IMG/VR virus record: IMGVR_UViG_3300025127_000336
Span: 1-21,592 of that record
DNA length: 21,592 bases
Direction: 5' to 3' (one strand)
Source of the DNA: a virus
Shown here piece by piece: positions 6,777 through 21,592 of this stretch; position 1 is the stretch's first letter, and every line of letters starts with the position of its first letter. Both the position numbers and the translations under genes were made by a program. The notes under the pieces were generated by a model. The model worked only from the letters and a program-made list of their open reading frames with translations, had not been told where the DNA came from and made no database searches.

Positions 6777-8591
6777 ATGCCAAGAAATAAATCTGGCTCA
6801 GCAAACGGTGGAGTAATTGGAAAAACGAATAAAACTTCGTTTGGAAAAGGCACTGTTACATCTAAAACATCCACAGGAGCAATAACAACACAACCAGGAA
6901 CAAGAGTTGTTCAAGCCTCTATAGTTGCAGGTGGTGGAGGTGGCGCAGCTGGATGTGGTGGTGGCGGTGGCGGCGGTGCCGGTGGTTTTATTTGTAAAGA
7001 AATTAATGTTTCTGGAAATACATCCTATACAGCAACAATTGGTGCTGGTGGGGCTTCAGGAACAGGACCCGAAGGATCAGCACCAGGTTGTGCTGAAGGA
7101 ACTACAGGATCTAATTCTGTATTTGCATGCAATACATCATCTGGTGGTGGAGGTGGTGGATCAGGTGAAGACAACTCTACTAACGTAGGACAAGCAGGTG
7201 GTTCTGGTGGTGGAGGTGGTGGTAATAGTTGTGCAGGTGCGGGAGGATCTGGAACTGCGTGTCAAGGAAATGATGGCGGTGCTGGTAACTTTGTGTCAGC
7301 TGGTGGTGGAGGTGGTAAAAATGCTGCTGGATCTGCGTCTACAAGAACTCCTGGCAGTCCTTCAGGAAACTCAGGAGCAGGTGGAGCAGGACTTTCGTCT
7401 CCAATAAATTGTACAACTTATGCAGGTGGTGGAGGTGGTGGAATAAAAGGTGATCAATCAGGATCAGCAGGTGCAGCTGGATCTGGTGGTGGAGGAGCAG
7501 GTGGTAAAGGAGCTGCAGGATCAGCAGCATGTGCTAACACTGGTGGAGGTGGTGGAGGTTCAGGAAGAAGAACTTCTCCCGCATCAAATTTTCCAGGTGG
7601 AGCAGGTGGTTCAGGAATAGTCATCGTAAAAGAATTAGATAAAGCAAGTGGTGTGTGGTCAATGCAAAGTCAATTTCAAGCCAAGCAACAAGGAACATGG
7701 CCACAGTTTTTACTTAGTATAGATTATTTAGTAGTCGCTGGTGGAGGTTCTGGTGGTTCTCAATCTTCTGGAGGTGGCGGAGCAGGAGGGTATAGAGCCT
7801 CTGGTTATGGGCCCTCTCCTTTACAAGGAGCTGCAGCAAAATTAACACCAGGAGCTTATACAATCACAGTAGGAGCAGGTGGAGCAGGTACAGGTGGACC
7901 AGCACATCCAGTTTCTCCAGCTGAACAACCAGGTAGACAAGGAACAGATTCTATATTTGATACAATTACTTCTACAGGAGGTGGAGCAGGAGTACACCAA
8001 TTAACTGATATGCCTAACGGTCGAGGAGGTTCTGGTGGTGGAGGATCTTGTAATGCTGGATCTTTTCCTGAAGTTGATTCAAATGGAAATACACCTCCTA
8101 CAACTCCTCCTCAAGGTAATCCTGGAGGAAGAGGAACTACATTATCACCAGGAGGTGTAGGTGGTGGTGGAGGTGGTGGTGCCACTGCAAAAGGAGCAAA
8201 TGCAAGTGGTAGTAGTGGTGGAAATGGAGGAGCAGGAGCACCAAATACAATTTTAGGACCTGACACAACATACGCCGGTGGTGGAGGTGGTGCCTTTGAT
8301 TCTAGAAACCCTGGAACAAGTGCAGGTGCAGGAGGAGCTGGTGGAGGTACTGCTGGAGTTGGTCCAGGAAATTCTGATGACGCTGCTGCTAATACAGGTG
8401 GAGGTAGTGGTGGTGGAAATTATGGAAGTAGCACAGGTGGATCAGGAAATGGTGGATCAGGAATTGTAGTAGTTAGAGGTCCAAGTGCTGTTACATTTGC
8501 AGTAGCCCCTGGAACAAATTCAACAGCAACACACCCTGGTGGAGACAAGTTAGCTACTTTTACAGTTTCTGGGACATTGACAATTTCTTAA
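6777..8591 (+). CDS. Second glycine-rich tail fibre / adhesin with two Gly-rich domains
   Basis: This 604-aa protein is a paralogue of the 876-aa fibre. Residues 11-45 repeat its N-terminal anchor (GVIGKTNKTSFGKG, TVTSKTSTGAITTQPGTR). The glycine-rich domains are at about 46-285 and 315-567. The linker VKELDKASGVWSMQSQFQ matches VKELDKASGVFSLADQFD of the first fibre. Domain 2 carries the identical AGGYRASGYGPSPLQG (336-351) and a NTPPTTPPQGN loop (438-448). The C-terminus FTVSGTLTIS mirrors FTVTGTLTIS. In effect it equals the first fibre without its third domain. Cysteines again cluster in domain 1. TAGGAG at 6765-6770 precedes the ATG. It may be an alternative adhesin or a partner in a mixed fibre. 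Confidence 0.75.
   Translation: MPRNKSGSANGGVIGKTNKTSFGKGTVTSKTSTGAITTQPGTRVVQASIVAGGGGGAAGCGGGGGGGAGGFICKEINVSGNTSYTATIGAGGASGTGPEGSAPGCAEGTTGSNSVFACNTSSGGGGGGSGEDNSTNVGQAGGSGGGGGGNSCAGAGGSGTACQGNDGGAGNFVSAGGGGGKNAAGSASTRTPGSPSGNSGAGGAGLSSPINCTTYAGGGGGGIKGDQSGSAGAAGSGGGGAGGKGAAGSAACANTGGGGGGSGRRTSPASNFPGGAGGSGIVIVKELDKASGVWSMQSQFQAKQQGTWPQFLLSIDYLVVAGGGSGGSQSSGGGGAGGYRASGYGPSPLQGAAAKLTPGAYTITVGAGGAGTGGPAHPVSPAEQPGRQGTDSIFDTITSTGGGAGVHQLTDMPNGRGGSGGGGSCNAGSFPEVDSNGNTPPTTPPQGNPGGRGTTLSPGGVGGGGGGGATAKGANASGSSGGNGGAGAPNTILGPDTTYAGGGGGAFDSRNPGTSAGAGGAGGGTAGVGPGNSDDAAANTGGGSGGGNYGSSTGGSGNGGSGIVVVRGPSAVTFAVAPGTNSTATHPGGDKLATFTVSGTLTIS
6912..8477 (+). repeat. Two long Gly-rich domain repeats within the 604-aa fibre
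   Basis: The domains lie at about 6912-7631 and 7719-8477 and are homologous to domains 1 and 2 of the upstream fibre. The flanks share near-identical DNA, for example around 3669-3708 versus 6859-6898 and 4420-4440 versus 7628-7648. They are possible substrates for homologous recombination. Confidence 0.7.
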
Positions 8592-8618: not shown

Positions 8619-9248
8619 ATGAACCTTACAAATTATTATTGGTATTTTCAATCAGCTATACCTTCTCGTATATGTGATGACATTGTAAAATATGGTCAAC
8701 AACTTCAAGATCAAATGGCAGTGACTGGTGGTTATGGTAATAAAAAATTAAATCAAAAAGAAATTAAAGATTTAAAAACAAAAAGAGATTCTAATATTGT
8801 TTGGATGAGCGATAGATGGGTGTATAAAGAAATACAACCTTATGTGCATCAAGCAAATGCAAATGCAGGTTGGAATTTTGAATGGGATTTTTCTGAGTCT
8901 TGTCAGTTTACAAAATATAAAAAAGGTCAATACTATGATTGGCATTGTGATAGTTGGGATAAACCATACATAAGACAACAACCTAACGATCCATCACATG
9001 GTAAGATTAGAAAACTATCTGTTACTGTAACTTTATCAGATCCAAAAGATTATAAAGGGGGTGAACTAGAATTTGATTTTAGAAATTTAGATCCGGATAA
9101 AAAACCTAATATACATAAATGTAAAGAGATATTGCCTAAAGGATCTTTAGTTGTATTTCCTTCATTTGTATGGCATAGAGTATGTCCAGTTAAAAGTGGA
9201 GAACGTAACAGTTTGGTGATTTGGAATTTAGGGTGGCCATTTAAATAA
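8619..9248 (+). CDS. 2-oxoglutarate/Fe(II)-dependent oxygenase (PKHD / prolyl-hydroxylase-like)
   Basis: This 209-aa protein is a complete double-stranded beta-helix enzyme of the usual small size. The iron site is H109-x-D111 (in YYDWHCDSW) with distal H186 (FPSFVWHRVCPV). R196, ten residues later (GERNSLVIW), is placed to bind the 2-oxoglutarate C5 carboxylate. Between them lies the typical LSVTVTLSDPKDYKGGELEF strand pair and a PKGSLVVFPS turn. Members hydroxylate side chains, often proline, using O2 and 2-oxoglutarate, and release succinate and CO2. The substrate cannot be read from sequence. It is the first of three such genes right after two Gly-rich fibres and ahead of a terminator-like hairpin, so late expression with the fibres is likely. 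DNA or host-protein substrates are alternatives. Confidence 0.85.
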   Translation: MNLTNYYWYFQSAIPSRICDDIVKYGQQLQDQMAVTGGYGNKKLNQKEIKDLKTKRDSNIVWMSDRWVYKEIQPYVHQANANAGWNFEWDFSESCQFTKYKKGQYYDWHCDSWDKPYIRQQPNDPSHGKIRKLSVTVTLSDPKDYKGGELEFDFRNLDPDKKPNIHKCKEILPKGSLVVFPSFVWHRVCPVKSGERNSLVIWNLGWPFK

Positions 9249-9256
9249 AGGAGAAT

Positions 9257-9973
9257 ATGAAAAAGAAAAAAACAAAAGTTAAAAAACAAAAAATACTATC
9301 TTTTCCAAAAAAATTAAATTTAGAACAATATTTTGCATCACCTATATGGTGGGCTGATGAACCTAGTTTTGTTGATAAATTAAACAAAGCATCAGATCCA
9401 TACATTGAAGATTCAAAGAAAAGATTAAAACCAGCTATTAATGAACGTAATAAAAAATTTGGTGATAAAGGAGATATGGGTCATGTATTTCATTCTACAT
9501 CATTAATAGGAGATCCTAATTTTTTAGAATTACAAAATTATATAGGTGCAACTGCACATAATTTATTAGGTGAAATGGGTTTTGATTTAACAAACTATCA
9601 ATTATTTACTACAGAATTATGGGTACAAGAGTTTGCTAAAAAAGGTGGTGGACATCATACTTTACACACTCATTGGAATGGTCACATATCTGGTTTTTAT
9701 TTTTTAAAAGCAGATGAGTCTACATCATTGCCAATGTTTGAAGATCCAAGACCAGGTAATGTTATGAATCTTTTACCGGAAAAAGATAAAACAAAAGTAA
9801 CTTATGCATCCTCACAAATTAATTATCAAGCAAAACCAGGCAGAATGATATTCTTTCCATCATACTTACCTCATCAATACATCGTAGATATGGGTTATGA
9901 ACCATTTAGATTTATACATTGGAATTGTCAGGCTATACCAAAAGGAGTGTTAAATGTCGTTCAAAAAAAATAA
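9257..9973 (+). CDS. Putative 2-oxoglutarate/Fe(II) oxygenase, TIGR02466-like
   Basis: This 238-aa protein has a lysine-rich start (MKKKKTKVKKQK) and then EQYFASPIWW, a typical opening of this group. The candidate metal site lies in GGHHTLHTHWNGHISGFYFL (H133, H134, H137, H139), where HxH followed by SGFYFL resembles the H-x-H...SGVYYL motif of the TIGR02466/PF13759 oxygenase family. The distal histidine would be H206 (FPSYLPHQYIV). R218 (PFRFIHWN) is in position to bind 2-oxoglutarate. Which of the clustered histidines bind iron is not certain. AAGGAG at 9248-9253 overlaps the preceding stop, and the 3' end overlaps the next gene by 20 bases, so the three oxygenases form one translational unit. 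The substrate is unknown. Confidence 0.7.
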   Translation: MKKKKTKVKKQKILSFPKKLNLEQYFASPIWWADEPSFVDKLNKASDPYIEDSKKRLKPAINERNKKFGDKGDMGHVFHSTSLIGDPNFLELQNYIGATAHNLLGEMGFDLTNYQLFTTELWVQEFAKKGGGHHTLHTHWNGHISGFYFLKADESTSLPMFEDPRPGNVMNLLPEKDKTKVTYASSQINYQAKPGRMIFFPSYLPHQYIVDMGYEPFRFIHWNCQAIPKGVLNVVQKK

Positions 9974-10595
9974 ATACAGTGTTTTAAAAGGAGCTATTTC
10001 AAAAGAGTTAGCAGATTTTGTTTACAAATACTTTAAAAATAAAAGAAACGTTGCAAGAGTATTATTTGATCAAAGATATATATCACCATTTACAGAATAT
10101 TGGGGTGTGTGGAATGATAGTCAAGTTCCAAATACTTATTCACATTATAGTGATATGGCTATGGAGACTTTATTACAAGAGGTAAAACCTGTTATGGAAA
10201 AACATACAGGACTAAAATTATCAGAGACATATTCCTACGCAAGAATATATAAAAACGGAGATGTTTTAGCTAGACACAAAGATAGATACTCATGTGAGAT
10301 ATCTACCACATTAAATTTAGGTGGTGACTCATGGCCTATATATCTTGATCCGACAGGTAAACAAGGTCAAGCTGGTATTAAAGTAGATCTTAAACCAGGA
10401 GATATGTTAATATATTCTGGTTGTGATTTAGAACATTGGCGAGATGAATTTAAAGGTAAAGATTGTGGGCAAGTATTTTTACATTATAACAGAGCTAATT
10501 CAAAAGCTGCTAAAGAAAACGCATTAGATAAAAGACCTTTATTAGGTTTACCTGCTTGGTTTAAAGGTACTAAGTTGACTAATTCTAAAAAATAG
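9954..10595 (+). CDS. Third 2-oxoglutarate/Fe(II) oxygenase-like protein
   Basis: This 213-aa protein begins inside the previous gene, served by AAGGAG at 9942-9947. The iron site is H108-x-D110 in DVLARHKDRYSCEISTTLNLG, with distal H161 in PGDMLIYSGCDLEHWRDEF. The middle (SWPIYLDPTGKQGQAG, KVDLKPGD) is characteristic of a phage/bacterial oxygenase group I recognise. No Arg or Lys is found 10-12 residues after H161: the position reads C-G-Q173-VFLHY. The 2-oxoglutarate anchor is therefore unusual, or is provided by R163 or K169. After residue 180 there is a C-terminal tail ending in KLTNSKK. The stop TAG at 10593-10595 lies inside a possible promoter for the next unit. The substrate is unknown. 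Confidence 0.75.
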   Translation: MSFKKNKYSVLKGAISKELADFVYKYFKNKRNVARVLFDQRYISPFTEYWGVWNDSQVPNTYSHYSDMAMETLLQEVKPVMEKHTGLKLSETYSYARIYKNGDVLARHKDRYSCEISTTLNLGGDSWPIYLDPTGKQGQAGIKVDLKPGDMLIYSGCDLEHWRDEFKGKDCGQVFLHYNRANSKAAKENALDKRPLLGLPAWFKGTKLTNSKK

Positions 10596-10691: not shown

Positions 10692-12875
10692 ATGCTACAA
10701 AAGATAGGTTTTCAGCCAGGTATAAATAAACAAATTACTGACACAGGAGCAGAGGGTCAATGGACAGACTGCGATAATGTTAGGTTTCGTTATGGTATTC
10801 CAGAAAAAATAGGTGGTTGGAAACAATTAGGTGACGATGCTTTAACTGGTGCTGGTAGAGGGTTACATCATTTTGTAAATAGTAAAGCTAGAAAGTATGC
10901 AATTATTGGCACAAACAGAATTTTATATGCATTTTCTGGTGGTGTATACTATGACATACATCCTATCAAATCTACAACAACGCTTACAAGTGCATTCACC
11001 ACGACCAACGGATCACAAACTGTTACAATAACTTTTAGTGGAGATCATGGCATAGGTGCACAAGATATAGTTTTATTAGATAATTTTTCTGCAATAACAA
11101 ATTCTGATTTTGCAGCTGCAGATTTTAACGACAAAAAATTTATGGTTACAAGTGTGCCATCAGCAACCACCATTACAATTACAATGCCATCAAATGAAAC
11201 AGGTAGTGGTGCAACTACATCAGGAGGGATTAGAGTACAACATTATTACCCTGTAGGACCAGCGGTGCAAGCAAAAGGTTTTGGTTGGTCTTTAGGATCT
11301 TGGGGTGGTGAAGTAGCAGGTGAACCAACAACAACTTTATCTGGTGCTATTAACTCTTCAACTACAACCGGTATTATATTAGCAGACGTATCACAATTTC
11401 CAGACACAGGTACAAACTTTATAAAAATAGGTACAGAAGAAATATCTTACACAGGTATAAGCACATCTAATGAATTAACAGGTGTTACAAGAGATGTGAG
11501 AGGAACTTCACCTGATTCACATGGTGCTGGAGATACTGTTACTAGCACAACAAATTTTGTGGCATGGGGTGAAGCAGCATCAGGAGACTTAGTATTAGAA
11601 CCTGGTATGTGGTCATTAGATAATTTTGGTGATAAAGCTATTTGTCTTATTCATGACAGTGCGGTGTTTGAATGGAACTCTGCAGCAGCAGGAGCAGAAA
11701 ACATTAGAGCCAGCATTATATCTGGTGCGCCAACAGCATCAAGACATATGTTAGTATCAACACCTGATAGACACTTAGTATTCTTTGGAACAGAAACAAC
11801 TATTGGAGATACATCAACACAAGATGACATGTTTATTAGATTCTCTGACCAGGAAGATATTAATACATACACACCATCGGCAACCAATACGGCTGGTACA
11901 CAAAGATTGGCTGACGGATCACAGATCAGAGGAGCAATTCGTGGTAGAGATTCAATTCTTGTTTGGACTGATACAGCTCTATTCACTATGCGTTTTGTTG
12001 GTCAACCTTTTACCTTTGCCTTTTCACAGGTAGGTACAAACTGTGGACTCGCAGGACAGAATGCTTGCGTTGAGGTCGACGGTTCAGCATACTGGTTGTC
12101 TGAAAATGGTTTTTTTAGATATGCTGGTAAATTAGAATCACTACCTTGTTTGGTAGAAGACTTTGTATATAATGATATAAATTTAGAATCCGGTAATCAA
12201 ATGATATCTGCTGGATTAAATAATCTCTTTGGTGAAGTTATGTGGTTTTATCCAACCTCCTCATCCTCTGTTGTAAATAGAATGGTTGCGTATAACTATT
12301 TTGATTCTTCACCACAAAGACCAGTATGGACTGTGGGCACACTTGCTAGAACAATGTGGCAAGACTCTGCTGTATTTGGTAGCCCACATGCAACAGAATA
12401 TACCGCAGGTAATGATTCATCTTTTGATGTCGTGGGCAACACAGAGGGTAGAACAATTTATTATCAACATGAAACAGGGACAGATCAAGTTCAAGGTGGA
12501 ACTACAACTGCAATACTTGCAAACATATCTTCTGGAGATTTTGACATAAGTCAAAGAAGAGGTATTACAGGTCAATCAACAGGTATAGCAGATCTTAGAG
12601 GAGATGGTGAGTTTTTAATGAAAGTTAGAAGATTCATACCAGACTTTATATCACAAACAGGAGCAACAAGAGTCACAATAAATTTAAGAGATTTTCCAAA
12701 CGATGCAAGAGCAAGTTCTTCTCTTGGACCTTTTGATATAACATCTAGTACAAAGAAAGTTGATACAAGAGCAAGAGGTAGAGCGGTGTCTTTAAAAATA
12801 GAAAATACATCATCTAATCAGAGTTGGAGACTTGGAACTTTTAGATTAGACATACAACCAGATGGACGTAGATAA
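10692..12875 (+). CDS. Probable tail nozzle / tail tube protein (gp10/gp12-like)
   Basis: This protein has 727 aa. The start LQKIGFQPGINKQ and WTDCDNVRFRYGIPEKIGGW is a signature I know from podovirus-type marine phage structural proteins. The core has repeated short beta blades suggesting a propeller (ARKYAIIGTNRILYAF, KAICLIHDSAVFEWN, RHLVFFGTETTIG, DSILVWTDTALFTMRF, GSAYWLSENGFFRYAG). Two apparent insertions interrupt it: a beta domain at about 94-190, and about 211-284 with FIKIGTEEISYTGI and ELTGVTRDVRGT. The C-terminal part (from about residue 600) is another beta domain. P22 gp10 and T7 gp12 nozzles share the propeller-with-insertions plan and this size, hence the call. It follows the hairpin and opens the second transcription unit. 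Its stop overlaps the next ATG (TAATG). Confidence 0.6.
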   Translation: MLQKIGFQPGINKQITDTGAEGQWTDCDNVRFRYGIPEKIGGWKQLGDDALTGAGRGLHHFVNSKARKYAIIGTNRILYAFSGGVYYDIHPIKSTTTLTSAFTTTNGSQTVTITFSGDHGIGAQDIVLLDNFSAITNSDFAAADFNDKKFMVTSVPSATTITITMPSNETGSGATTSGGIRVQHYYPVGPAVQAKGFGWSLGSWGGEVAGEPTTTLSGAINSSTTTGIILADVSQFPDTGTNFIKIGTEEISYTGISTSNELTGVTRDVRGTSPDSHGAGDTVTSTTNFVAWGEAASGDLVLEPGMWSLDNFGDKAICLIHDSAVFEWNSAAAGAENIRASIISGAPTASRHMLVSTPDRHLVFFGTETTIGDTSTQDDMFIRFSDQEDINTYTPSATNTAGTQRLADGSQIRGAIRGRDSILVWTDTALFTMRFVGQPFTFAFSQVGTNCGLAGQNACVEVDGSAYWLSENGFFRYAGKLESLPCLVEDFVYNDINLESGNQMISAGLNNLFGEVMWFYPTSSSSVVNRMVAYNYFDSSPQRPVWTVGTLARTMWQDSAVFGSPHATEYTAGNDSSFDVVGNTEGRTIYYQHETGTDQVQGGTTTAILANISSGDFDISQRRGITGQSTGIADLRGDGEFLMKVRRFIPDFISQTGATRVTINLRDFPNDARASSSLGPFDITSSTKKVDTRARGRAVSLKIENTSSNQSWRLGTFRLDIQPDGRR

Positions 12876-13696: not shown

Positions 13697-15196
13697 ATGG
13701 CCATTACAAACGCACAGCAATACAAACAACTCGTAAACCCACCGATGAAAGGTAATAAAAGACCTGGGTATCGTGGTGATGATGCAGCTTATTCAACGGG
13801 AGCTGCACAAATGGGTAGAGCAGATCCAGGGACTCGTTCTGGAGGACCTTCAGGGGGACCTGATAGAGGAGGAAGAGATGATGTAGTTACAGCAGGTGCT
13901 TTAAGAAGAAATCAATTAGCTTTAGAAAATATGGCGTATAAAAGAGGTCAAGCAGAATTAGATAATCTTAAAATAGCAGATACAAGATTTCCTGCATTTT
14001 TTCCAGGTAGTACACTTTTAAATATAGGTTTAGGAGCTACAACAAAACGTAGACAAAAAATGTTGGATAGAAATGTAGATTATTTTAAAAATTTATCAGG
14101 AATAGAAAATAAAGGTTATCCTAAAACAGCGGAGGGATATAGACAATACATGAAAGACAGATTAGCGGGTAAAATAGATGCTGCTGGTAATACTATAATG
14201 ACAGACGGTGATGACCCTCAACAACCTATTATACCTGTAGATACAATATTTAACACGGACCAAGAAACAGAAACAGAAGAAGAAGCTGAAGGTTTAAGAT
14301 TAGCATTTAGAGCTAATGGTGGTATCATAGGTGGTTTATCTGACGGTCAAATAGACGAGATGGGTAGACAGATGTACGGTCTAGGTAAACTTGTTAAGAA
14401 AGCAACAAGAGCAGTTAAAAAAATTGTAAAGTCACCGATAGGTAAAGCTGCATTAATAGCTGGTGGAGGTTATTTATTAGGAGGTGGCACTGTGTTTAAT
14501 AAAGCATTACCTGGTATAGGAACTGGTGGAGGTTTTTCTTTTAGAAATATATTACCAAATTTAATAGGAGTTAAAGAATCAGGTGGAGTAGGAGTAGGTT
14601 TTGAAGGCATACTAGGTAAACTTGGATTAACAAAAGGTTTTGGTTCAGCAATGCCAACAGCTTTAAGTGGTATATTAGGAGCATCAGTAGCAGCAGGATT
14701 ACTAACACCTGAACAAGAAGAGCAAGCACAACAATTAGCAGACGAAACTGGATTTAGTATAGAAGAAGCTAGAAACTCCATTTTACAAGCTGCAAAAGAA
14801 AATTATGCTATGGACTTTAGAGCAAGAGGTTTTAAAGCAGATGGTGGTAGAATAGAATATCAAGAAGGTTCAAAAGAACCAGTAGCTAAGAAGACTATGC
14901 CATTATTAGATATGGGTGGTATGGAAAAAGATTATAGAGAAGATGGTGGATTTGTACCGATAGGTAGAATGGAAAAAGCGGATGATGTACCTGCAAGATT
15001 GTCTAAGAATGAATTTGTATTTACGGCTGATGCCGTTAGAAATGCAGGTGACGGAGATGTGGACAAAGGCGCAGAAGTTATGTATAACATGATGAAGAAC
15101 CTCGAATCCGGAGGTGACGTATCTGAAGAATCGCAAGGATTAGAAGGCGCAAGAAGAATGTTTCAAACATCACAAAGATTAGAGGAAGTATTATAA
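13697..15196 (+). CDS. Putative internal virion protein, 499 aa
   Basis: The N-terminal 60 residues are polar and Gly/Arg-rich (GNKRPGYRGDD, SGGPSGGPDRGGRDD). A helical part follows (65-160), then an acidic stretch (DQETETEEEAE, 188-198). Next is ANGGIIGGLSDG and a hydrophobic, glycine-rich region (247-338) with KAALIAGGGYLLGGG and ALSGILGASVAAGLL that could insert in or cross a membrane. The end carries ADGGRIEYQEG (381-391), EDGGFVPIG and a conserved block VPARLSKNEFVFTADAVRNA (431-450), whose relatives I know from phage virion proteins. It heads a run of four genes that end in a giant protein, a layout typical of DNA-ejection proteins. The exact role is unproven. It ends in TAATG. Confidence 0.5.
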   Translation: MAITNAQQYKQLVNPPMKGNKRPGYRGDDAAYSTGAAQMGRADPGTRSGGPSGGPDRGGRDDVVTAGALRRNQLALENMAYKRGQAELDNLKIADTRFPAFFPGSTLLNIGLGATTKRRQKMLDRNVDYFKNLSGIENKGYPKTAEGYRQYMKDRLAGKIDAAGNTIMTDGDDPQQPIIPVDTIFNTDQETETEEEAEGLRLAFRANGGIIGGLSDGQIDEMGRQMYGLGKLVKKATRAVKKIVKSPIGKAALIAGGGYLLGGGTVFNKALPGIGTGGGFSFRNILPNLIGVKESGGVGVGFEGILGKLGLTKGFGSAMPTALSGILGASVAAGLLTPEQEEQAQQLADETGFSIEEARNSILQAAKENYAMDFRARGFKADGGRIEYQEGSKEPVAKKTMPLLDMGGMEKDYREDGGFVPIGRMEKADDVPARLSKNEFVFTADAVRNAGDGDVDKGAEVMYNMMKNLESGGDVSEESQGLEGARRMFQTSQRLEEVL

Positions 15197-16341
15197 TGGC
15201 TGTTCAAACTGTACAAAATATACCTGCAGATTTTATTAAAAATTTAGGAGTAGATTTAGGAAAACAAATTACGGCACAGTCAGGTGTGCCTACAGTATCG
15301 GTTGGATTAGCAGGCATATCACAACAACCTGGTGAATCACCTGAAGATTTTGCAGCTAGACAACAAGCGGCAAGAGAATTTACAACAAGACAAGAAAGTT
15401 TAGCAGGCCTTGCACCAACAGTTGCAGGTCAAGACGTACTACAACAAACAGCAACTAGATTAGGAGCAGAGGCTGCAGGAATAGATCCAACCACTGGACA
15501 AAAAACTGGGTTAGCTTCTTTTGAACCATTTTTAAATCAAGCACAAACACAAGCACAAGTTGCTGCTGGATTAGGAACACAGGCTCTTGGACAATTAGGA
15601 ACAGCAGGAGCAACACTAGGTGGTGTGCCACTAGGAGCACAAGCTTTTCAACAAGACGTATCTCAATTTATGTCCCCATATCAATCACAAGTGATTGATG
15701 CAACACTACAAGAATTTGATCGTAACAAAGCTATACAAGAACAGCAGATACGAGATCAACAAGCAGCTTTGGGTGCGCTCGGCAGTGGTCGAGCGGGAGT
15801 GCAACTCGCAGAGTTTGGCACAGGGGCTGCGAGAGAACGTGCATTATTACAAGCCGGTCTCTTGCAACAAGGATTTAATCAAGCTTCAGCACAAAGACAA
15901 CAGGACATACAAAATAGATTTGGTTTAGGTCAGGCGCAAGCTGGGATTGCAAGTCAAACACAAGGTTTAGGTGCTTTTCAATCTGGATTAGCTGGTCAAC
16001 AAGCACAACTTGGTGGAATTTTACAAGGATTACAAGGAACAGATATTTCACGTTTAGGTCAGTTGGGCGCACTGAACCAAGCGCAAGAACAAGCAAGAAG
16101 AGATGCAGAAAGAGAAGCAGCAAGACAAGCTACATTCTTACCACAAGAAAGGTTAGATAGATTTGCTGGTCAAGTAACAGGATTGATGGGTGGTTATCCT
16201 GGTCAAACACAAACAACAAACATACCTAACCCTACACCATTACAAACTGCATTAGGAGTTGGTACTACACTTGCTGGTATTTATAGTGGATTAAAAACAG
16301 GAGACCCAGGTTTCTTTAAAAACCTTACAAAGGGAATCTAA
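15196..16341 (+). CDS. Putative DNA-ejection / internal virion protein, Gln/Ala-rich
   Basis: This 381-aa protein is very rich in Gln and Ala, with long helical stretches. Residues 158-176 read FMSPYQSQVIDATLQEFDR. Together with IQEQQIRDQQAALGALGSGR and VQLAEFGTGAARERALLQ (to about 219) they form a block I recognise as strongly conserved in marine phage ejection-type proteins. The C-terminal 349-366 (LQTALGVGTTLAGIYSGL) is a moderately hydrophobic helix. Gln/Ala-rich, helix-forming, membrane-active proteins of this size are typical of podovirus proteins injected with the genome (P22 gp7/gp16/gp20 type). AGAGGA at 15181-15186 and a TAATG overlap drive translation. The codons in 15770-15850 are unusually GC-rich for this window. 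Confidence 0.55.
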   Translation: MAVQTVQNIPADFIKNLGVDLGKQITAQSGVPTVSVGLAGISQQPGESPEDFAARQQAAREFTTRQESLAGLAPTVAGQDVLQQTATRLGAEAAGIDPTTGQKTGLASFEPFLNQAQTQAQVAAGLGTQALGQLGTAGATLGGVPLGAQAFQQDVSQFMSPYQSQVIDATLQEFDRNKAIQEQQIRDQQAALGALGSGRAGVQLAEFGTGAARERALLQAGLLQQGFNQASAQRQQDIQNRFGLGQAQAGIASQTQGLGAFQSGLAGQQAQLGGILQGLQGTDISRLGQLGALNQAQEQARRDAEREAARQATFLPQERLDRFAGQVTGLMGGYPGQTQTTNIPNPTPLQTALGVGTTLAGIYSGLKTGDPGFFKNLTKGI

Positions 16342-16342
16342 T

Positions 16343-17431
16343 ATGAGCAGAACACTTAAAAGACCAATGTTTAGAATGGGTGGTGCAACAGGAACTGGCA
16401 TTACATCTGGTTTAGATAGAAAACCTTTTCAACAAGGAACTGATCCATATGACAGAGCTATGAAAACCACAGAAAGATTTATGACAGACATGGATAGATT
16501 TAGAGGTGAAACGCCAGCGTTTGCACCAAGTGCGTTACCAGGTTTCTTAACACAGTTTGGTTTAAATTTATTATCACAATCACCACAAGGTAACATATTT
16601 CAAACAGCTGCGACAGCCGCTAAAGAACCTTTTCAAACATTTCAAGCATCAACTTTAAGAAGACAAGAAGATATAGCTGACAGAAGAGATGATATATTTG
16701 GCACGGCTCTTGCATCAGAGTATGATTTAGAAGCACAAAGAATTAAAAGTCAAGGTCAGTCTGATGATGATAGAAAAACACCAGAAGTAGAACGTGGTAT
16801 TATTGAAGATGCACAAAATAATATATTTGCAGCAAGAGATATATTAAAAAATAAAAACTCTACAAAAGAACAAATACAAAATGCAGAAAGAACTATTAAA
16901 GTAAATCAAAATGTTCTTGTAAAAGAATTAGGGGTGCCAGCAGAGTACGCTGCAATCATATCTTCTGCAGAGTTATTTGATGCTGAAATGGACGCTGTTG
17001 TTGCAACATTTAATGACAAAAATCAAAAATTAGCAGAAGAATATATGAAAGATAATCCAGACGTTCCAGTAACAGAAGTTTTAAAAATTTATCCACAAAT
17101 AGAAGTTGGTTCTGCAAAAGCAAGAGCCCTTACAATAGAAGATTTAAAAAATAGATTCTTTTATGCAGAAGGTGGTAGAGCAGGGTTCAAACTGGGAACA
17201 CCTGACCCAATGATGGAATCTGTTGCAAAGCAACCAAAAGGTGAGGTACAAGAATTATCCTACACAGAACTTAGATCAAGACTACCACAAGAAATTTCAA
17301 ATGATATTGTTATGCTTTTAGCCAACAGCAAACAAGCATTAATAGATTTTGCTAACATTCAAACAACAGAGGATATCGCTAGTTTCAATCAACAATATGA
17401 CGTGAACTTGTCAATGCCATCGGGAGCGTAG
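16343..17431 (+). CDS. Putative virion protein, 362 aa, with AEGGRAGF motif
   Basis: It opens with MSRTLKRPMFRMGGATGTGI, a start I have seen in many marine phage proteins. Residues 35-135 are helical and hydrophilic (LPGFLTQFGLNLLSQSPQG, then a run ending in FQTFQASTLRRQEDIADRRD). Residues 150-260 are a long charged helical region. At 273-286 there is FYAEGGRAGFKLG, similar to FKADGGRIEYQEG in the 499-aa protein. The remainder is a compact C-terminal domain (about 300-362). There is no enzyme or membrane motif. It sits between the Gln-rich protein and the giant gene, with one base before its start and TAGATG at its end, so a joint assembly role with these ejection-type proteins is likely. The function is otherwise unknown. 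Confidence 0.5.
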   Translation: MSRTLKRPMFRMGGATGTGITSGLDRKPFQQGTDPYDRAMKTTERFMTDMDRFRGETPAFAPSALPGFLTQFGLNLLSQSPQGNIFQTAATAAKEPFQTFQASTLRRQEDIADRRDDIFGTALASEYDLEAQRIKSQGQSDDDRKTPEVERGIIEDAQNNIFAARDILKNKNSTKEQIQNAERTIKVNQNVLVKELGVPAEYAAIISSAELFDAEMDAVVATFNDKNQKLAEEYMKDNPDVPVTEVLKIYPQIEVGSAKARALTIEDLKNRFFYAEGGRAGFKLGTPDPMMESVAKQPKGEVQELSYTELRSRLPQEISNDIVMLLANSKQALIDFANIQTTEDIASFNQQYDVNLSMPSGA

Positions 17432-20400
17432 ATGGAACCTTTTAATAAAAGAAAAATTATCTTAGATCAAGATCAAGTCAAAGAGACACTTACATCCTCT
17501 TTACAAAAAACACTTACCAAACAAAAGAAACCTGTAAAATTTACATGGGAAGGTCTTAAAAATTTTAGCAAAGTATTTACCACAAATCCTTTCGACAAGA
17601 TGAGAAATGAAAGACTCATGGAGTTGATGGACAACAAAGATAAACCAAAAGAAAAAGACTATATAGATTTTTTTGAGGACATGGAAAAATCTATATATGG
17701 TGCTGTACAAAATATAGGTTACTCATTTGGTGATCTTATTACTACTGGTATTGATGCAGCAGCTGATACTAACCTTACAGAAAGATTAGATAAGATTTAT
17801 GATGAAAGTAAAATAGATGACCCTGAAACATTATTAGGGACAGTAAATAAAGTTCTGATTGAATATGGTCTACCAGGTGGTGCCGTATTTAAAGTAATGA
17901 ATAGAGCTAAAAAATTACTCAAGGCTAAAAAGGTAAAAGATACATCAATAGCTGCAGGCACTGCAGGAACTAAGATAGCTAATATTGCAAAACGATCTGG
18001 TTATATGGCAGCTGCTTTTGGTGCAACAGATTTTATCACGTCAGGTGCAAGACAAAGAAAGGGTGATGAACCACTGATTATGGACCTTGAAAGTGAGGAG
18101 GGTTTAGATGGTCAAGATTTGGCACTTACTAGATTTAGAAATAAAATTAGATTTGGTGCCGAAGGAACTTTAATAGGTGCATTGTTTCCCTTAATGGGTA
18201 AACCACTTGCTAAAGTTGCAACGTTTGGTGCAAAGTATGGATTGATGAAACCAGCAGGCTACGCACTACGAGGTGTTGATACATTAGCTGTTAGACCTGC
18301 AACATATCTTTTATCAAGAATACCAGGGTCCACAGCTGCTGGTAAAGGTATAAGAAATGCAAGTAGCTATGTCGTAGATAAAACATTATCTACAGTATTA
18401 ACTGGTAGTCCTAAAAAACAATTACCAGCGTTTGAAAAATGGAGAATGTTTTCAACAACAAGTGATGATCCATTACAAGCTAAATTAAAAAAAGTAGACA
18501 ACTTTTTATCTGCGTTTAGATCACTTGGTAAGTATACGGGTCTTGGTTATCAACTTACGTCAGAAGCACGAAGAGAAATAAAAGCAAGGGCGAGAACAAT
18601 AGAAAAATATTTAGAATCAATAGAAAAAAAGTCATATGATTTAGCCAAAGGTTTTGAAGGTATGTATAACACAGCCACTACATCACCTGCAAGTAAAGAC
18701 TATTATCTTGATCAAGTGCTCGCATATTTAAAAGGACAAATAAAAAAATCAGATTTACCAAAAACTCTTCAACAAACTGCTGAAGATTTAAATAAAGAGA
18801 TGATGAATACAAAACAAATCTTTGGTGAGTTATTACCAAAAGGTGATCTTAAAAATTTTATTTTAAATAATATTAAAACATACATGAGAAAGTCTTTCTC
18901 TATATTTACAAATCCAGAATACATGCCAGACCAGAAATTAAAAGATGGTGCAAAAGCATATATATTAAACAACGTTGTAAAAAGAAACAAAGACATAAGA
19001 GAAAGTGCAATCAATACTTTAAAAACATCTAAGATGACAGATGCACAAGCATTAGATGCCATGGCAGATTCTATGGTTCACAAAATTTTAATTAACACAA
19101 AAACAGATGGAGTTGATCCGTTAAAATTATTACAGAATGTAGCTAAAAATCAATTAAGATCTGATAAACTAATTAAGACTGGAGAAGAATTACCAGATGC
19201 AATTAAAAAATTATTGGGTGAAGAAAATAATTTAAAATCATCTGTGCTACAAACAACATCACATGCAATAACTCAAGCAGTTAACAAACAGACTTTAGAT
19301 AAATTAGCAAGAATAGGTTTAGATGAAGGATGGTTGTACAAATCAGAATCAGATGCAATTGCTAAAAAAGCTTTTGATGCATCAAAGATAGGTGATTTAC
19401 AAAGTTTAGGTATATTAAAAAGTAGTATATCTAAATTATATGCCTCTGCAGATATGGCAAAGGCTATAAAAGGTGCACCAGGTAAATTAGATGGTTTATT
19501 ACAAAGTTCTGCATACAGAAATATGCTACAATTTAAAGTAGCAACACAGTTTGGTAAAACAGTTCTTTCACCTGCAACACAAGTTAGAAACGTAACTTCT
19601 GCTAGTATGTTTCCGTTAGCTAATGGCCATATTGGTGGTAGATCCTCTGTAACAGAATCTATTAGAATGGTTATAGATGATATATTTGGTGCAGGTCAAT
19701 TAATTGATGAGACTAAATTTATAAAAAATTTAGAAAATAAGATACGTCTTGGTGTTATTGATGAAAACATTGTAGCGTCAGAATTAAAAGCCGTACTAAA
19801 AGATATTAAAGCTGGTGCAAAAGTTAAGAACATGGACAGTTTACTTGCAAGACTAGCAGAGTCGAGAATGTTAAAAACAGCCACAAGGATATACGCTGGA
19901 GGTGATAACTTGTGGAAGTGGTATGGCCACGAATATGTAAAATCACAAATGAAATCTATCTACAAAAACGTAGATGATATTGCACGATGGACCAAAGAGA
20001 TTGTTGGTAGAGATTTTGACAGAGTCAATACGTTTACAGGTAAACTAAAAACATTTGATGAAGCTTTAGATGAAGCAGCTGCATGGCAGATAAGAAACAC
20101 ATATCCAACATACAGTAAAGTACCTGAAGTTATACAAAATTTAAGAAAGCTACCATTTGGTAACTTCGTATCGTTTCCTGCAGAGATGATTAGAACAACA
20201 TACAACATATTAAGTTTAGGATTAAAAGAAGCTACATCATCAAATGCAAATCTAAGACAGATGGGTTACAGGAGATTAATAGGTTCACTAGTTACTTTAG
20301 GTGGTGCAGAAAAAGCCGTATCTACGATAGGTCAAAACTTAACAGGTGTAACTATGGAACAGATAGATGCATACAAAAGAAGTTTATCAGCACCGTGGGA

Positions 20401-21592
20401 TTCAAGAGCTGCAATTATACCAATTAACAAATGGAAAGATGGTGTTGGTAAAGCGATTAACTTTTCATACTTTAGTCCGTACGATGTTGTAAAACAACCT
20501 TTTGGTGCTGCATTAAAAACATTAGAAGAAGGTAAAGTAAGACAAGAAGATGCTGGTAATGTAGCATGGAATTTAATGTTAGGAGAAGATGGACCTGTAA
20601 GAAAACTTTTAGATCCATTTATATCAGAGGCAATCTTCTTTGAAAAAGTATTAGACACATTACCATCAGGAGTTGGATTCGGTGGTAGAGGTGGTGTAAC
20701 TAAAACAGGGTCAAGAGTATACTCAATCACGGACGACGGACCAGACGCTTTTATGAAAAGTTTGGTGCACATCATAGAAGGTGTTCAACCAACTGCAATC
20801 ACAACTGCAGGTAAACTTGTACAAGGTCTAGAGAAAGATCTTAAACGAGGTGGACAACCGGTAACATTACAAGATGAATTGCTTGCATTATTTTCAGGCA
20901 TAAGAATTATAAACGTAGACGTACCAAAAGCGATGCAGTTTAAAGTGACAGATTATCAAAAGAAATTTAGATCTGTTACACAAACAGAAAAATTATTTAG
21001 TTTAGAAAACTATCAGAACAGAGGACCACTTGTATTAGCTGATGAGTTTAGACAGATTCAAGACGAAACATTAAAAGTAAACAGAGAGTTTCATTTAATA
21101 TTAGAGGATGCATTAAAAACTGGTGTACCAAAAAGACAATTGTTAAAAATTTTAAGAGACAGAAGAATATCTTATGCAAAAGCAAAAAAATTATTAGATG
21201 GTAAGAACATACCATACACAGGATTTGAAGAACGTATGAAGAAAAGAGTAAAAGAAGCACAGATAGAAGCAAAAAGAAGAGGTGAAAATGAAACTGTTAA
21301 CAAAGAATATTTTTACCCTAAAAAATTATTTAGAGACATATTAAGAGAATACAAAAACAAAACTTTAAAAATAGAAGAACCAAATACAAGATTATTAGAA
21401 TTAGAAAAATTTAAAGAAAGCATATCAGGTGATCAAAGTGCCCTACCTGGTCAAGAAGAAACAAGACAATTAGCTGATATACAGACACCACCATTACCAA
21501 ATACACCAATGCCTATGGTACAAACAGCTAGAGCTAATGTGAATCCAAATACTAACTTGACACCAACACAAGAAGCTTTACTATCACCTGAA
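17432..21592 (+). CDS. Giant internal virion / ejection-type protein (partial, 3' end outside window)
   Basis: An uninterrupted frame from the ATG at 17432 (GGGAG five bases upstream, right after TAG 17429-17431) runs off the window after 1387 codons. The first 100 residues are charged. Segments at about 137-165 (VLIEYGLPGGAVFKVM), 171-204 (GYMAAAFGATDFITSG) and 240-267 (GTLIGALFPLMGKPLAKV) are amphipathic or hydrophobic. Residues 270-700 are long helical coils. A block near 704-735 (FGKTVLSPATQVRNVTSASM) and one near 819-836 (RIYAGGDNLWKWYGHEYV) resemble motifs in very large marine phage proteins. The end (from about 1210) is basic coiled helix and then Pro/Asn-rich. Size, helicity and position match the largest ejected protein of short-tailed phages. 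No lytic or polymerase motif is seen. A tape-measure protein is the main alternative. Confidence 0.55.
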   Translation, partial: MEPFNKRKIILDQDQVKETLTSSLQKTLTKQKKPVKFTWEGLKNFSKVFTTNPFDKMRNERLMELMDNKDKPKEKDYIDFFEDMEKSIYGAVQNIGYSFGDLITTGIDAAADTNLTERLDKIYDESKIDDPETLLGTVNKVLIEYGLPGGAVFKVMNRAKKLLKAKKVKDTSIAAGTAGTKIANIAKRSGYMAAAFGATDFITSGARQRKGDEPLIMDLESEEGLDGQDLALTRFRNKIRFGAEGTLIGALFPLMGKPLAKVATFGAKYGLMKPAGYALRGVDTLAVRPATYLLSRIPGSTAAGKGIRNASSYVVDKTLSTVLTGSPKKQLPAFEKWRMFSTTSDDPLQAKLKKVDNFLSAFRSLGKYTGLGYQLTSEARREIKARARTIEKYLESIEKKSYDLAKGFEGMYNTATTSPASKDYYLDQVLAYLKGQIKKSDLPKTLQQTAEDLNKEMMNTKQIFGELLPKGDLKNFILNNIKTYMRKSFSIFTNPEYMPDQKLKDGAKAYILNNVVKRNKDIRESAINTLKTSKMTDAQALDAMADSMVHKILINTKTDGVDPLKLLQNVAKNQLRSDKLIKTGEELPDAIKKLLGEENNLKSSVLQTTSHAITQAVNKQTLDKLARIGLDEGWLYKSESDAIAKKAFDASKIGDLQSLGILKSSISKLYASADMAKAIKGAPGKLDGLLQSSAYRNMLQFKVATQFGKTVLSPATQVRNVTSASMFPLANGHIGGRSSVTESIRMVIDDIFGAGQLIDETKFIKNLENKIRLGVIDENIVASELKAVLKDIKAGAKVKNMDSLLARLAESRMLKTATRIYAGGDNLWKWYGHEYVKSQMKSIYKNVDDIARWTKEIVGRDFDRVNTFTGKLKTFDEALDEAAAWQIRNTYPTYSKVPEVIQNLRKLPFGNFVSFPAEMIRTTYNILSLGLKEATSSNANLRQMGYRRLIGSLVTLGGAEKAVSTIGQNLTGVTMEQIDAYKRSLSAPWDSRAAIIPINKWKDGVGKAINFSYFSPYDVVKQPFGAALKTLEEGKVRQEDAGNVAWNLMLGEDGPVRKLLDPFISEAIFFEKVLDTLPSGVGFGGRGGVTKTGSRVYSITDDGPDAFMKSLVHIIEGVQPTAITTAGKLVQGLEKDLKRGGQPVTLQDELLALFSGIRIINVDVPKAMQFKVTDYQKKFRSVTQTEKLFSLENYQNRGPLVLADEFRQIQDETLKVNREFHLILEDALKTGVPKRQLLKILRDRRISYAKAKKLLDGKNIPYTGFEERMKKRVKEAQIEAKRRGENETVNKEYFYPKKLFRDILREYKNKTLKIEEPNTRLLELEKFKESISGDQSALPGQEETRQLADIQTPPLPNTPMPMVQTARANVNPNTNLTPTQEALLSPE

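Follow-up and report, generated by a model that had tools for sequence, protein, structure and literature searches.

Why do two dissimilar proteins of one virus carry the same short peptide built around Gly-Gly-Arg (GGR)? The question is raised by IMG/VR record IMGVR_UViG_3300025127_000336, a viral stretch of 21,592 bases that we call the window. A preliminary description had noticed the layout aromatic-x-A-acid-G-G-R-x-x-aromatic-x-x-G in two of its open reading frames (ORFs), of 499 and 362 amino acids (aa). Both peptides are where they were said to be, with exact translations inside these ORFs. We found that they are imperfect members of a recurrent motif of roughly ten residues, approximately A-x-G-G-R-[I/V]-G-[Y/F]-x-x-G-G, that is enriched over re-ordered versions of itself. 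In the window copies the positions +3 to +5 read IEY and AGF, with a single G at +8.

14831..14872, + strand: motif copy 1, FKADGGRIEYQEGS, residues 379-392 of the 499-aa protein
17159..17197, + strand: motif copy 2, FYAEGGRAGFKLG, residues 273-285 of the 362-aa protein
14309..14335, + strand: RANGGIIGG, degenerate copy at another motif site; in the same alignment column the motif is complete in 5 homologues

The third copy had been named before as a weaker version of the layout, together with REDGGFVPIG. Both peptides exist, at coordinates 2-3 bases away from those first given. Because of the five homologues with a full motif at its column, RANGGIIGG is read as a degraded copy. REDGGFVPIG (true position 14936-14965) was rejected, as it falls at no motif column of the alignment and is part of another conserved domain. 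The two proteins that carry the motif had been described as otherwise unrelated, and we observed no significant overall similarity between them; the top BLASTP alignment was the motif region itself, with an E-value of 0.15, so homology of the two proteins is unsupported.

Within the window, GGR alone is not enriched (6 observed compared to 4.66 expected). The full layout occurs twice in the window ORFs and did not occur in 2000 residue shuffles. Since this layout was derived from the same two peptides, the independent test comes from relatives and from collection-wide scans. In the relatives we used the core pattern GGR[IVMLA][GNE][FYL]. Among full-length homologues of the 499-aa ORF the core was present in 50 of 72, with 78 copies in total, where shuffling gave a mean of 0.36 (maximum of 2 in 200 shuffles); for the 362-aa ORF it was present in 18 of 37, with 20 copies against a mean of 0.035 (maximum 1). 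Both homologue sets include loci chosen by the motif.

A set of 80 loci was therefore of particular use for reading these counts, being fetched solely with the window's structural protein (phrog_3287) as bait. In these motif-independent loci the core was found in 18 of 38 matches to the 499-aa ORF and in 4 of 13 matches to the 362-aa ORF, or in 11 of 28 and 4 of 11 when only full-length homologues were counted. A profile of 89 GGR sites from the same loci, which takes in GGR of other origin, gave A at -2 with frequency 0.47, [I/V] at +3 with 0.42, G at +4 with 0.53, [Y/F] at +5 with 0.30 (L with 0.13), G at +8 with 0.54 and G at +9 with 0.30. The residue preceding GG was unconstrained. Three of the 80 loci (L006, L024 and L031) were also found by the motif scan and were left out of the profile. 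We quote conservation from the bait-picked loci because the scan pattern itself fixes positions +3 to +5, +8 and +9 in the motif-picked ones. The A at -2, which the scan pattern does not name, again had a frequency of 0.50 in the motif-picked loci.

The collection-wide scans used DNA patterns. The AGR form encodes GGR[IVM]G[FY]xxGG, and the CGN form covers the other arginine codons. Scans of this kind give lower bounds, and total abundance is not derivable from them. The AGR form was found in at least 120 IMG/VR stretches, as was the CGN form, compared to 4 stretches for reversed codons and 23 for another re-ordering in controls run over the whole of IMG/VR. All 120 AGR loci (133 matches) and the 113 newly fetched of 120 CGN loci (124 matches) were analysed. 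The motif is read as protein: among the matches listed, 131 of 133 (AGR) and 115 of 124 (CGN) fell in the longest of the six frames, compared to 1 of 4 and 4 of 23 for the order controls. An ORF with at least two cores held 48 of the 133 and 32 of the 124. In cellular genomes the AGR pattern was present in at least 117 stretches; among the matches listed there, the longest frame was hit in 22 of 118, an ORF with at least two cores in 0 of 118, and the only phage-like context recognised by eye was that of L218, a contig of a marine metagenome-assembled genome. In 14 IMG/VR records, mostly chosen for the motif, there were 20 matches to the core pattern and none to its backwards control. Searches by tblastn with a 29-aa motif peptide and with L109 as queries gave no match.

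The distribution of the motif over genes is uneven. Gene families were defined by best BLAST matches to genes of two named phages, Pelagibacter phage HTVC027P and phage 023Pt_psg01 (023Pt below), and such a match may rest on one shared domain. In the motif-independent loci, 28 of 751 ORFs bore the motif: 16 of 33 in the family of the 499-aa ORF, 4 of 13 in that of the 362-aa ORF, 1 of 24 ejection proteins and 7 of 270 ORFs without a family match. It was absent from all 80 structural proteins, and the other matched families had no bearer. The 120 motif-picked loci held 149 bearers among 928 ORFs; there, homologues of the 499-aa ORF bore the motif in 18 of 20 and 37 of 41 cases and homologues of the 362-aa ORF in 6 of 18 and 8 of 17. 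Homologues of two large genes between terminase and portal bore it in 4 of 6 and 2 of 3, and in 16 of 19 and 2 of 6 cases. Lower fractions were seen for the ejection protein (2/49), the large last gene (1/26) and unmatched ORFs (50/334), while a small protein had it in 3 of 4. Portal (0/34), terminase as matched to HTVC027P (0/18) and structural protein (0/56) were free of it.

The two complete genomes gave a similar result. Among the 87 annotated features of HTVC027P the core was found in gp41, gp42 and gp82 only, and among the 86 features of 023Pt in the counterparts of gp41, gp82 and gp84 only; none of these is a replication gene. Equal occurrence in non-virion genes, which would have spoken against a virion tag, was thus not seen in the two genomes scanned. 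Altogether, a tie of the motif to ejection-type proteins is fairly well supported. As a separate observation, gp42 of HTVC027P (L206:23405-26083) shows weak helix-turn-helix matches around residue 112, and a stretch EVDHxxxxxxNPFxNLRV in it looks HNH-like by eye; gp42 is perhaps an injected DNA-acting protein.

The bearers are diverse. With the motif masked, 132 motif-bearing ORFs, holding 155 copies of a stricter form with the second GG, fell into 20 single-linkage clusters at an E-value of 1e-4 in BLAST, with 13 singletons. The largest cluster, of 85 ORFs, was chained via shared modules, and a few singletons may be chance matches. Clustering by coverage, again with the motif masked, gave 40 clusters. 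A short linear motif is expected to have 3-12 conserved residues in dissimilar proteins, and the GGR motif has this property, dissimilarity here being judged by BLAST, so that distant homology of some bearers is possible.

We scanned 29 hand-chosen, non-random bearers from outside the window against PHROGs, Pfam or both, and a domain could be placed in 15. Several kinds fit an internal or ejected protein. The DNA-ejection family was found in L554, L555 (together with GH108/endolysin) and L559. SLT transglycosylase was found in L349 and L431, and in L372 just under the Pfam cut-off; a pesticin-type lysozyme was found in L116. ART-PolyVal was found in L345 (E 1.1e-34) and InPase in L557 (E 2e-49), whose motif gene shares one stretch with a portal gene. 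InPase is named among the domains of phage polyvalent proteins in PMC5512222. Less expected bearers were the tape-measure protein L058, Peptidase_S74 proteins (L372, L391, L398), DUF4214 proteins (L401, L410) and a DUF7178 protein (L368). In L372, L391 and L398 the Peptidase_S74 domain lies well within bearers of 1500-1600 aa, and L372 also has the borderline SLT match. We also observed that at L554:2-5785 a DarB-like antirestriction protein (phrog_10089) is encoded near the motif-bearing ejection-family protein, from which a single head-protein gene separates it.

In the chain, the motif lay outside the placed domain in 13 of the 15 domain-bearing proteins; in the exceptions, L116 and L058, it lies inside a long tape-measure profile match. 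For L345, L368 and L410 several stretches matched and only the best was placed in this count; in these three, 140-151 residues around the motif had no Pfam match of their own at an E-value of 0.01. By eye, one motif copy of L345 directly follows the apparent end of the ART domain. A similar [VI]...RKY stretch, also seen by eye, directly precedes the motif in L345, L425 and L440, as if it were one domain's end.

AlphaFold models were made for both window proteins. In the 362-aa model (30 sequences, mean predicted local distance difference test (pLDDT) value of 76), motif copy 2 begins at a helix end and its GGR opens the stretch 276-301, where pLDDT is below 50. The helical parts on either side of this linker are confident, with mean pLDDT per block of 91-98 for residues 211-270 and 93-95 for residues 311-350. 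In the 499-aa model (35 sequences, mean pLDDT of 56), motif copy 1 falls within residues 372-405 and RANGGIIGG within residues 203-227, both below 50; this placement is weaker evidence because 229 of the 499 residues have such values. The models are consistent with the disordered or linker location usual for short linear motifs, low pLDDT being a proxy and the 499-aa model being poor overall. The 362-aa model had no BFVD match at an E-value of 0.001 or better, and its best match in the PDB, with a Z-score of 7.4, was inside the tool's stated noise range. It had been proposed that the motif might turn out to be a mere loop of homologous folds. This was not seen: both window copies lie in low-confidence stretches rather than in a loop of a shared fold.

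The position of the motif varies along the chain. In the alignment of the 362-aa family (window included), 17 of 36 occupied rows have it at one column, and two N-terminal sites hold four copies. For the 499-aa family (73 sequences, window included), the alignment puts 42 copies in one column group, and 13 other groups have 1-8 copies each. An alignment rich in gaps can pull motifs together. The 155 copies of the stricter form were spread over all tenths of ORF length, with 13 in the first tenth, some ORFs being cut by contig ends.

Two further short elements accompany the motif. A C-terminal tag, GG[LIVMF]AxMLGE followed by a stop, was found in at least 120 IMG/VR stretches (L445-L552 and eight others); the 120 listed stretches gave 116 matches, and 85 of these 116 share an ORF with the GGR motif. 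A module [RK]RxFxK...GK, typically RRxFLKLMxGLASxPxxGK, often stands right after the motif (L011:2-682, L036:6642-8264, L104:3656-5998 and others). It resembles a twin-arginine signal, though its usual place is internal; the L036 copy, which is N-terminal, has a sub-threshold Pfam TAT_signal match (E 0.0085).

In the window, the 499-aa and 362-aa ORFs belong to one gene module with the structural and ejection protein genes.

10692..12875, + strand: virion structural (stabilisation-like) protein, 727 aa; phrog_3287, E 1.5e-100; the bait that is independent of the motif
13697..15196, + strand: 499-aa ORF with the first motif copy; C-terminal part similar to HTVC027P gp82
14924..15106, + strand: separate conserved domain EKDYREDGGFVPIG...PARLSKNEFVFTADAVR..., which holds REDGGFVPIG
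15196..16341, + strand: DNA ejection protein, 381 aa; phrog_4287, E 4.7e-13
16343..17431, + strand: 362-aa ORF with the second motif copy; helical model; N-terminal third similar to HTVC027P gp84
17432..21592, + strand: 1387-aa ORF, large last gene of the module, running off the window end; without the motif core

Small ORFs lie between the structural protein gene and the 499-aa ORF. The gene order is shared with HTVC027P and 023Pt, to which the two motif proteins are similar in part, over the last fifth of the 499-aa ORF and the first third of the 362-aa ORF. Judging by gene neighbourhood and homology, the two are probably virion proteins, as had been assumed. Neither matched the phrog_4287 profile or any Pfam domain at an E-value of 0.01, so the two or more disparate recognised domains that define a polyvalent protein are not present. 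Residues 416-475 of the 499-aa ORF have a weak match to a tape-measure family (phrog_5448, E 0.0017), and the GGR motif is outside it. The conserved domain at 14924-15106, of the form EGGFVPIG..EKADDVPARLSKNEFVFTADAVR.AG, is near-invariant across 35 sequences and resembles parts of tape-measure proteins. The 362-aa ORF starts with an N-terminal tag M..L.RPMF[RK].GG....GI (16343-16402), which is among the most conserved positions of its family.

Not every related phage has the motif. Among 17 named phage records there were three clear carriers, HTVC027P, 023Pt and MW202675. HTVC103P had an isolated single match, and so did HTVC026P, in a tail-fibre gene where it is doubtful. The motif-free records were HTVC010P, HTVC019P, HTVC111P, P-SSP7, HTVC008M, HMO-2011, HTVC023P, DSL-LC04, CRP-901, Pag-Yong1, RW and QDWS535; the tests differed between phages, being made on ORFs of at least 80 aa or with a DNA pattern blind to forms like GGRVGL. 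A clear negative is HTVC023P, with a portal 54% identical to that of HTVC027P. The motif had been described as a tag of marine phage proteins, for which marine may be too narrow a word: carriers include contigs of 50-68% guanine-plus-cytosine (GC) content and a record from Manatee Spring (USA), and many marine phages are without it. Motif-bearing contigs span 33-68% GC, which suggests several host groups.

We propose, tentatively and with somewhat less than even confidence, that the motif is a short linear docking motif by which internal, ejected proteins are brought together as the head is assembled, its binding to a partner being predicted. Its place would be the flexible linkers of proteins that travel in the head and leave it with the DNA, such as ejection proteins, cell-wall enzymes and host-acting cargo. 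The Gly-Gly pairs would set off a short exposed strand, Arg-[Ile/Val]-Gly-[Tyr/Phe], to be gripped by a common partner in the procapsid (another ejection protein, a scaffold, the portal or the coat). The strand might be added to a beta-sheet of this receptor, which the RIGY core between Gly pairs would suit. In this way one partner could gather dissimilar proteins of differing size, and several copies per protein would give higher avidity. The proposal predicts the presence of the bearers in the virion, binding by the motif and the identity of its partner. We prefer docking since it best fits the conserved order of residues, the dissimilar carriers, the linker position, the repeats, the wandering position and the many internal or ejected kinds of bearer. 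The preliminary description had suggested a docking, packaging or proteolysis signal. A tag shared by dissimilar phage proteins and tied to genes of internal proteins is what stands of this; the mechanism is unproven, with docking or packaging as the best candidate and proteolysis as a less likely one.

Several observations weigh against this proposal. Bearers that match no gene of the reference genomes number 50 of 149 in the motif-picked loci and 7 of 28 in the bait-picked ones, and an internal place is predicted for them solely from gene neighbourhood. The ejection protein of the window itself (381 aa) is without GGR. About half of the homologues are without the motif (18 of 37 full-length members of the 362-aa family have it), so not every bearer needs it. 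Domains could not be placed in 14 of the 29 scanned bearers, and L058, L372, L391 and L398 may be fibre- or tape-measure-like; Peptidase_S74 is usually an intramolecular chaperone of fibres. At the level of phages, 12 of the 17 named records are without the motif by ORF or DNA-pattern scan, and any receptor model must accommodate HTVC023P and the others. Docking to the phrog_1216 portal, which HTVC027P and 023Pt have, was considered as a common rule and rejected. Out of 18 tblastn records with an HTVC027P-like portal we examined 9, and 6 of them (HTVC023P, DSL-LC04, CRP-901, Pag-Yong1, Caulobacter RW and QDWS535) had no motif pattern, so this portal type is insufficient.

The main rival to docking is processing, in which a protease of the phage or the host, acting as the head matures or once the proteins have been ejected, cleaves at GGR or next to it and frees the domains of long proteins that the motif separates. 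The motif is indeed mostly clear of annotated domains and repeated in long proteins, and processing of polyvalent proteins has been proposed (PMC5512222). On the other hand, an enrichment that extends from A at -2 to G at +8 and +9 is wide for a cleavage site, although a protease reading a hairpin could produce it. The motif is also often lost in homologues, and the listed products of HTVC027P, most of them hypothetical, include a peptidase M15 but no head protease. We regard processing as unlikely, though worth keeping in view.

Proteins ejected through portal and tail need to unfold, and the motif could be nothing but a Gly-rich hinge that eases this passage, its likeness across proteins coming from composition and common descent. 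Low pLDDT and the content of Gly agree with such a plain linker. A hinge, however, needs no [I/V], G and aromatic residue after GGR, and these are enriched in the motif-independent loci too. The rarity of reversed and permuted codon orders and the 78 motifs in 72 homologues (a set that includes motif-picked loci), far above the shuffle mean, likewise disagree with it, and we consider the plain linker improbable.

Another possible role comes once the proteins have been ejected: the motif might bind a factor of the host (membrane, chaperone or nucleoid) and mark proteins for what they do in the cell. The probable host-acting bearers with ART-PolyVal and InPase are what such a role would predict. 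Against it, proteins of the ejection module are among the bearers too, as are cell-wall enzymes, whose site of action is not the cytoplasm, and the GC range suggests several host groups; we give this explanation a rather small chance.

The weakest alternative, a DNA or RNA signal (a packaging, recombination or regulatory site) that is incidentally translated, is very improbable, as matches track the coding frame, the 58 instances of GGRIGY have 33 distinct DNA versions, and the second Gly codon (p 0.16) and the Arg codon (p 0.21) are used as elsewhere in the same ORFs, in spite of a codon bias at the first Gly (GGA 0.043 compared to 0.193 in other Gly-Gly pairs, p 1e-9) and at the Gly at +4 (p 0.0017), both p-values being inflated by related sequences. 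The low use of GGA at the first Gly may reflect avoidance of GGAGG, a Shine-Dalgarno-like word.

Known systems resemble the motif in part. RGG/GAR boxes have Gly, Arg and aromatic residues close together, as the motif does; unlike them, it has no RGG runs, has a fixed layout and, in the motif-independent loci, has no extra basic residues nearby apart from GGR. Short targeting signals for internal head proteins are already known as a kind, and the T4-type capsid-targeting signal is N-terminal and cut off. The motif described here is mostly internal, often repeated and varied in position, with no N-terminal preference of the T4 type. What it would share with T4 signals, and with the loading of P1 Dar proteins in order with DarA and Hdf (PMC12810830), is that several internal proteins are brought into the head by a single small feature or partner. 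Polyvalent proteins (Iyer et al. 2017, PMC5512222) are another parallel, since bearers L345 and L557 have such domains in large proteins; most scanned bearers do not, and the paper's main text never mentions GGR, a short motif, glycine or a linker. As for the DNA ejection proteins of short-tailed phages (phrog_4287; PMC8954989), they are encoded in the same module in the window and bear the motif in L554, L555 and L559, while the ejection protein of the window's own group seldom does (1 of 24).

We found no paper with the literal motif strings or with a GGR motif and phage, in a search that left most subscription papers and all bioRxiv preprints outside. The available text of the pelagiphage paper PMC9599517 has no mention of internal, ejection or glycine, and its sole mention of a motif concerns CsgG. 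An internal, repeated motif common to many dissimilar cargo families would be new relative to the known targeting signals. A bolder version, in which one virion receptor recognises the motif as a general head-loading tag and packages many dissimilar cargo and ejection proteins, so that the motif, the GG[LIV]AxMLGE tag and the RRxFxK module make up a cargo-sorting code of environmental phages, is possible but doubtful.

No function has been assigned to the majority of genes in abundant ocean phages. If the motif marks injected proteins carried in the head, many hypothetical proteins would fall into one class, predictable from sequence alone. The motif would then draw attention to effectors that reach SAR11 and other bacteria within the first minutes of infection, and the tag could be used for loading foreign proteins into phage heads.

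Two minor observations concern the part of the window upstream of the module. Beside the structural genes, at 8619-10595, three ORFs stand in a row, the third of them at 9954-10595, and both of the two that were scanned match 2OG-Fe(II) oxygenase families. Further upstream, 3608-6238 and 6777-8591 encode two highly glycine-rich proteins with Pfam Gly_rich_2 matches.

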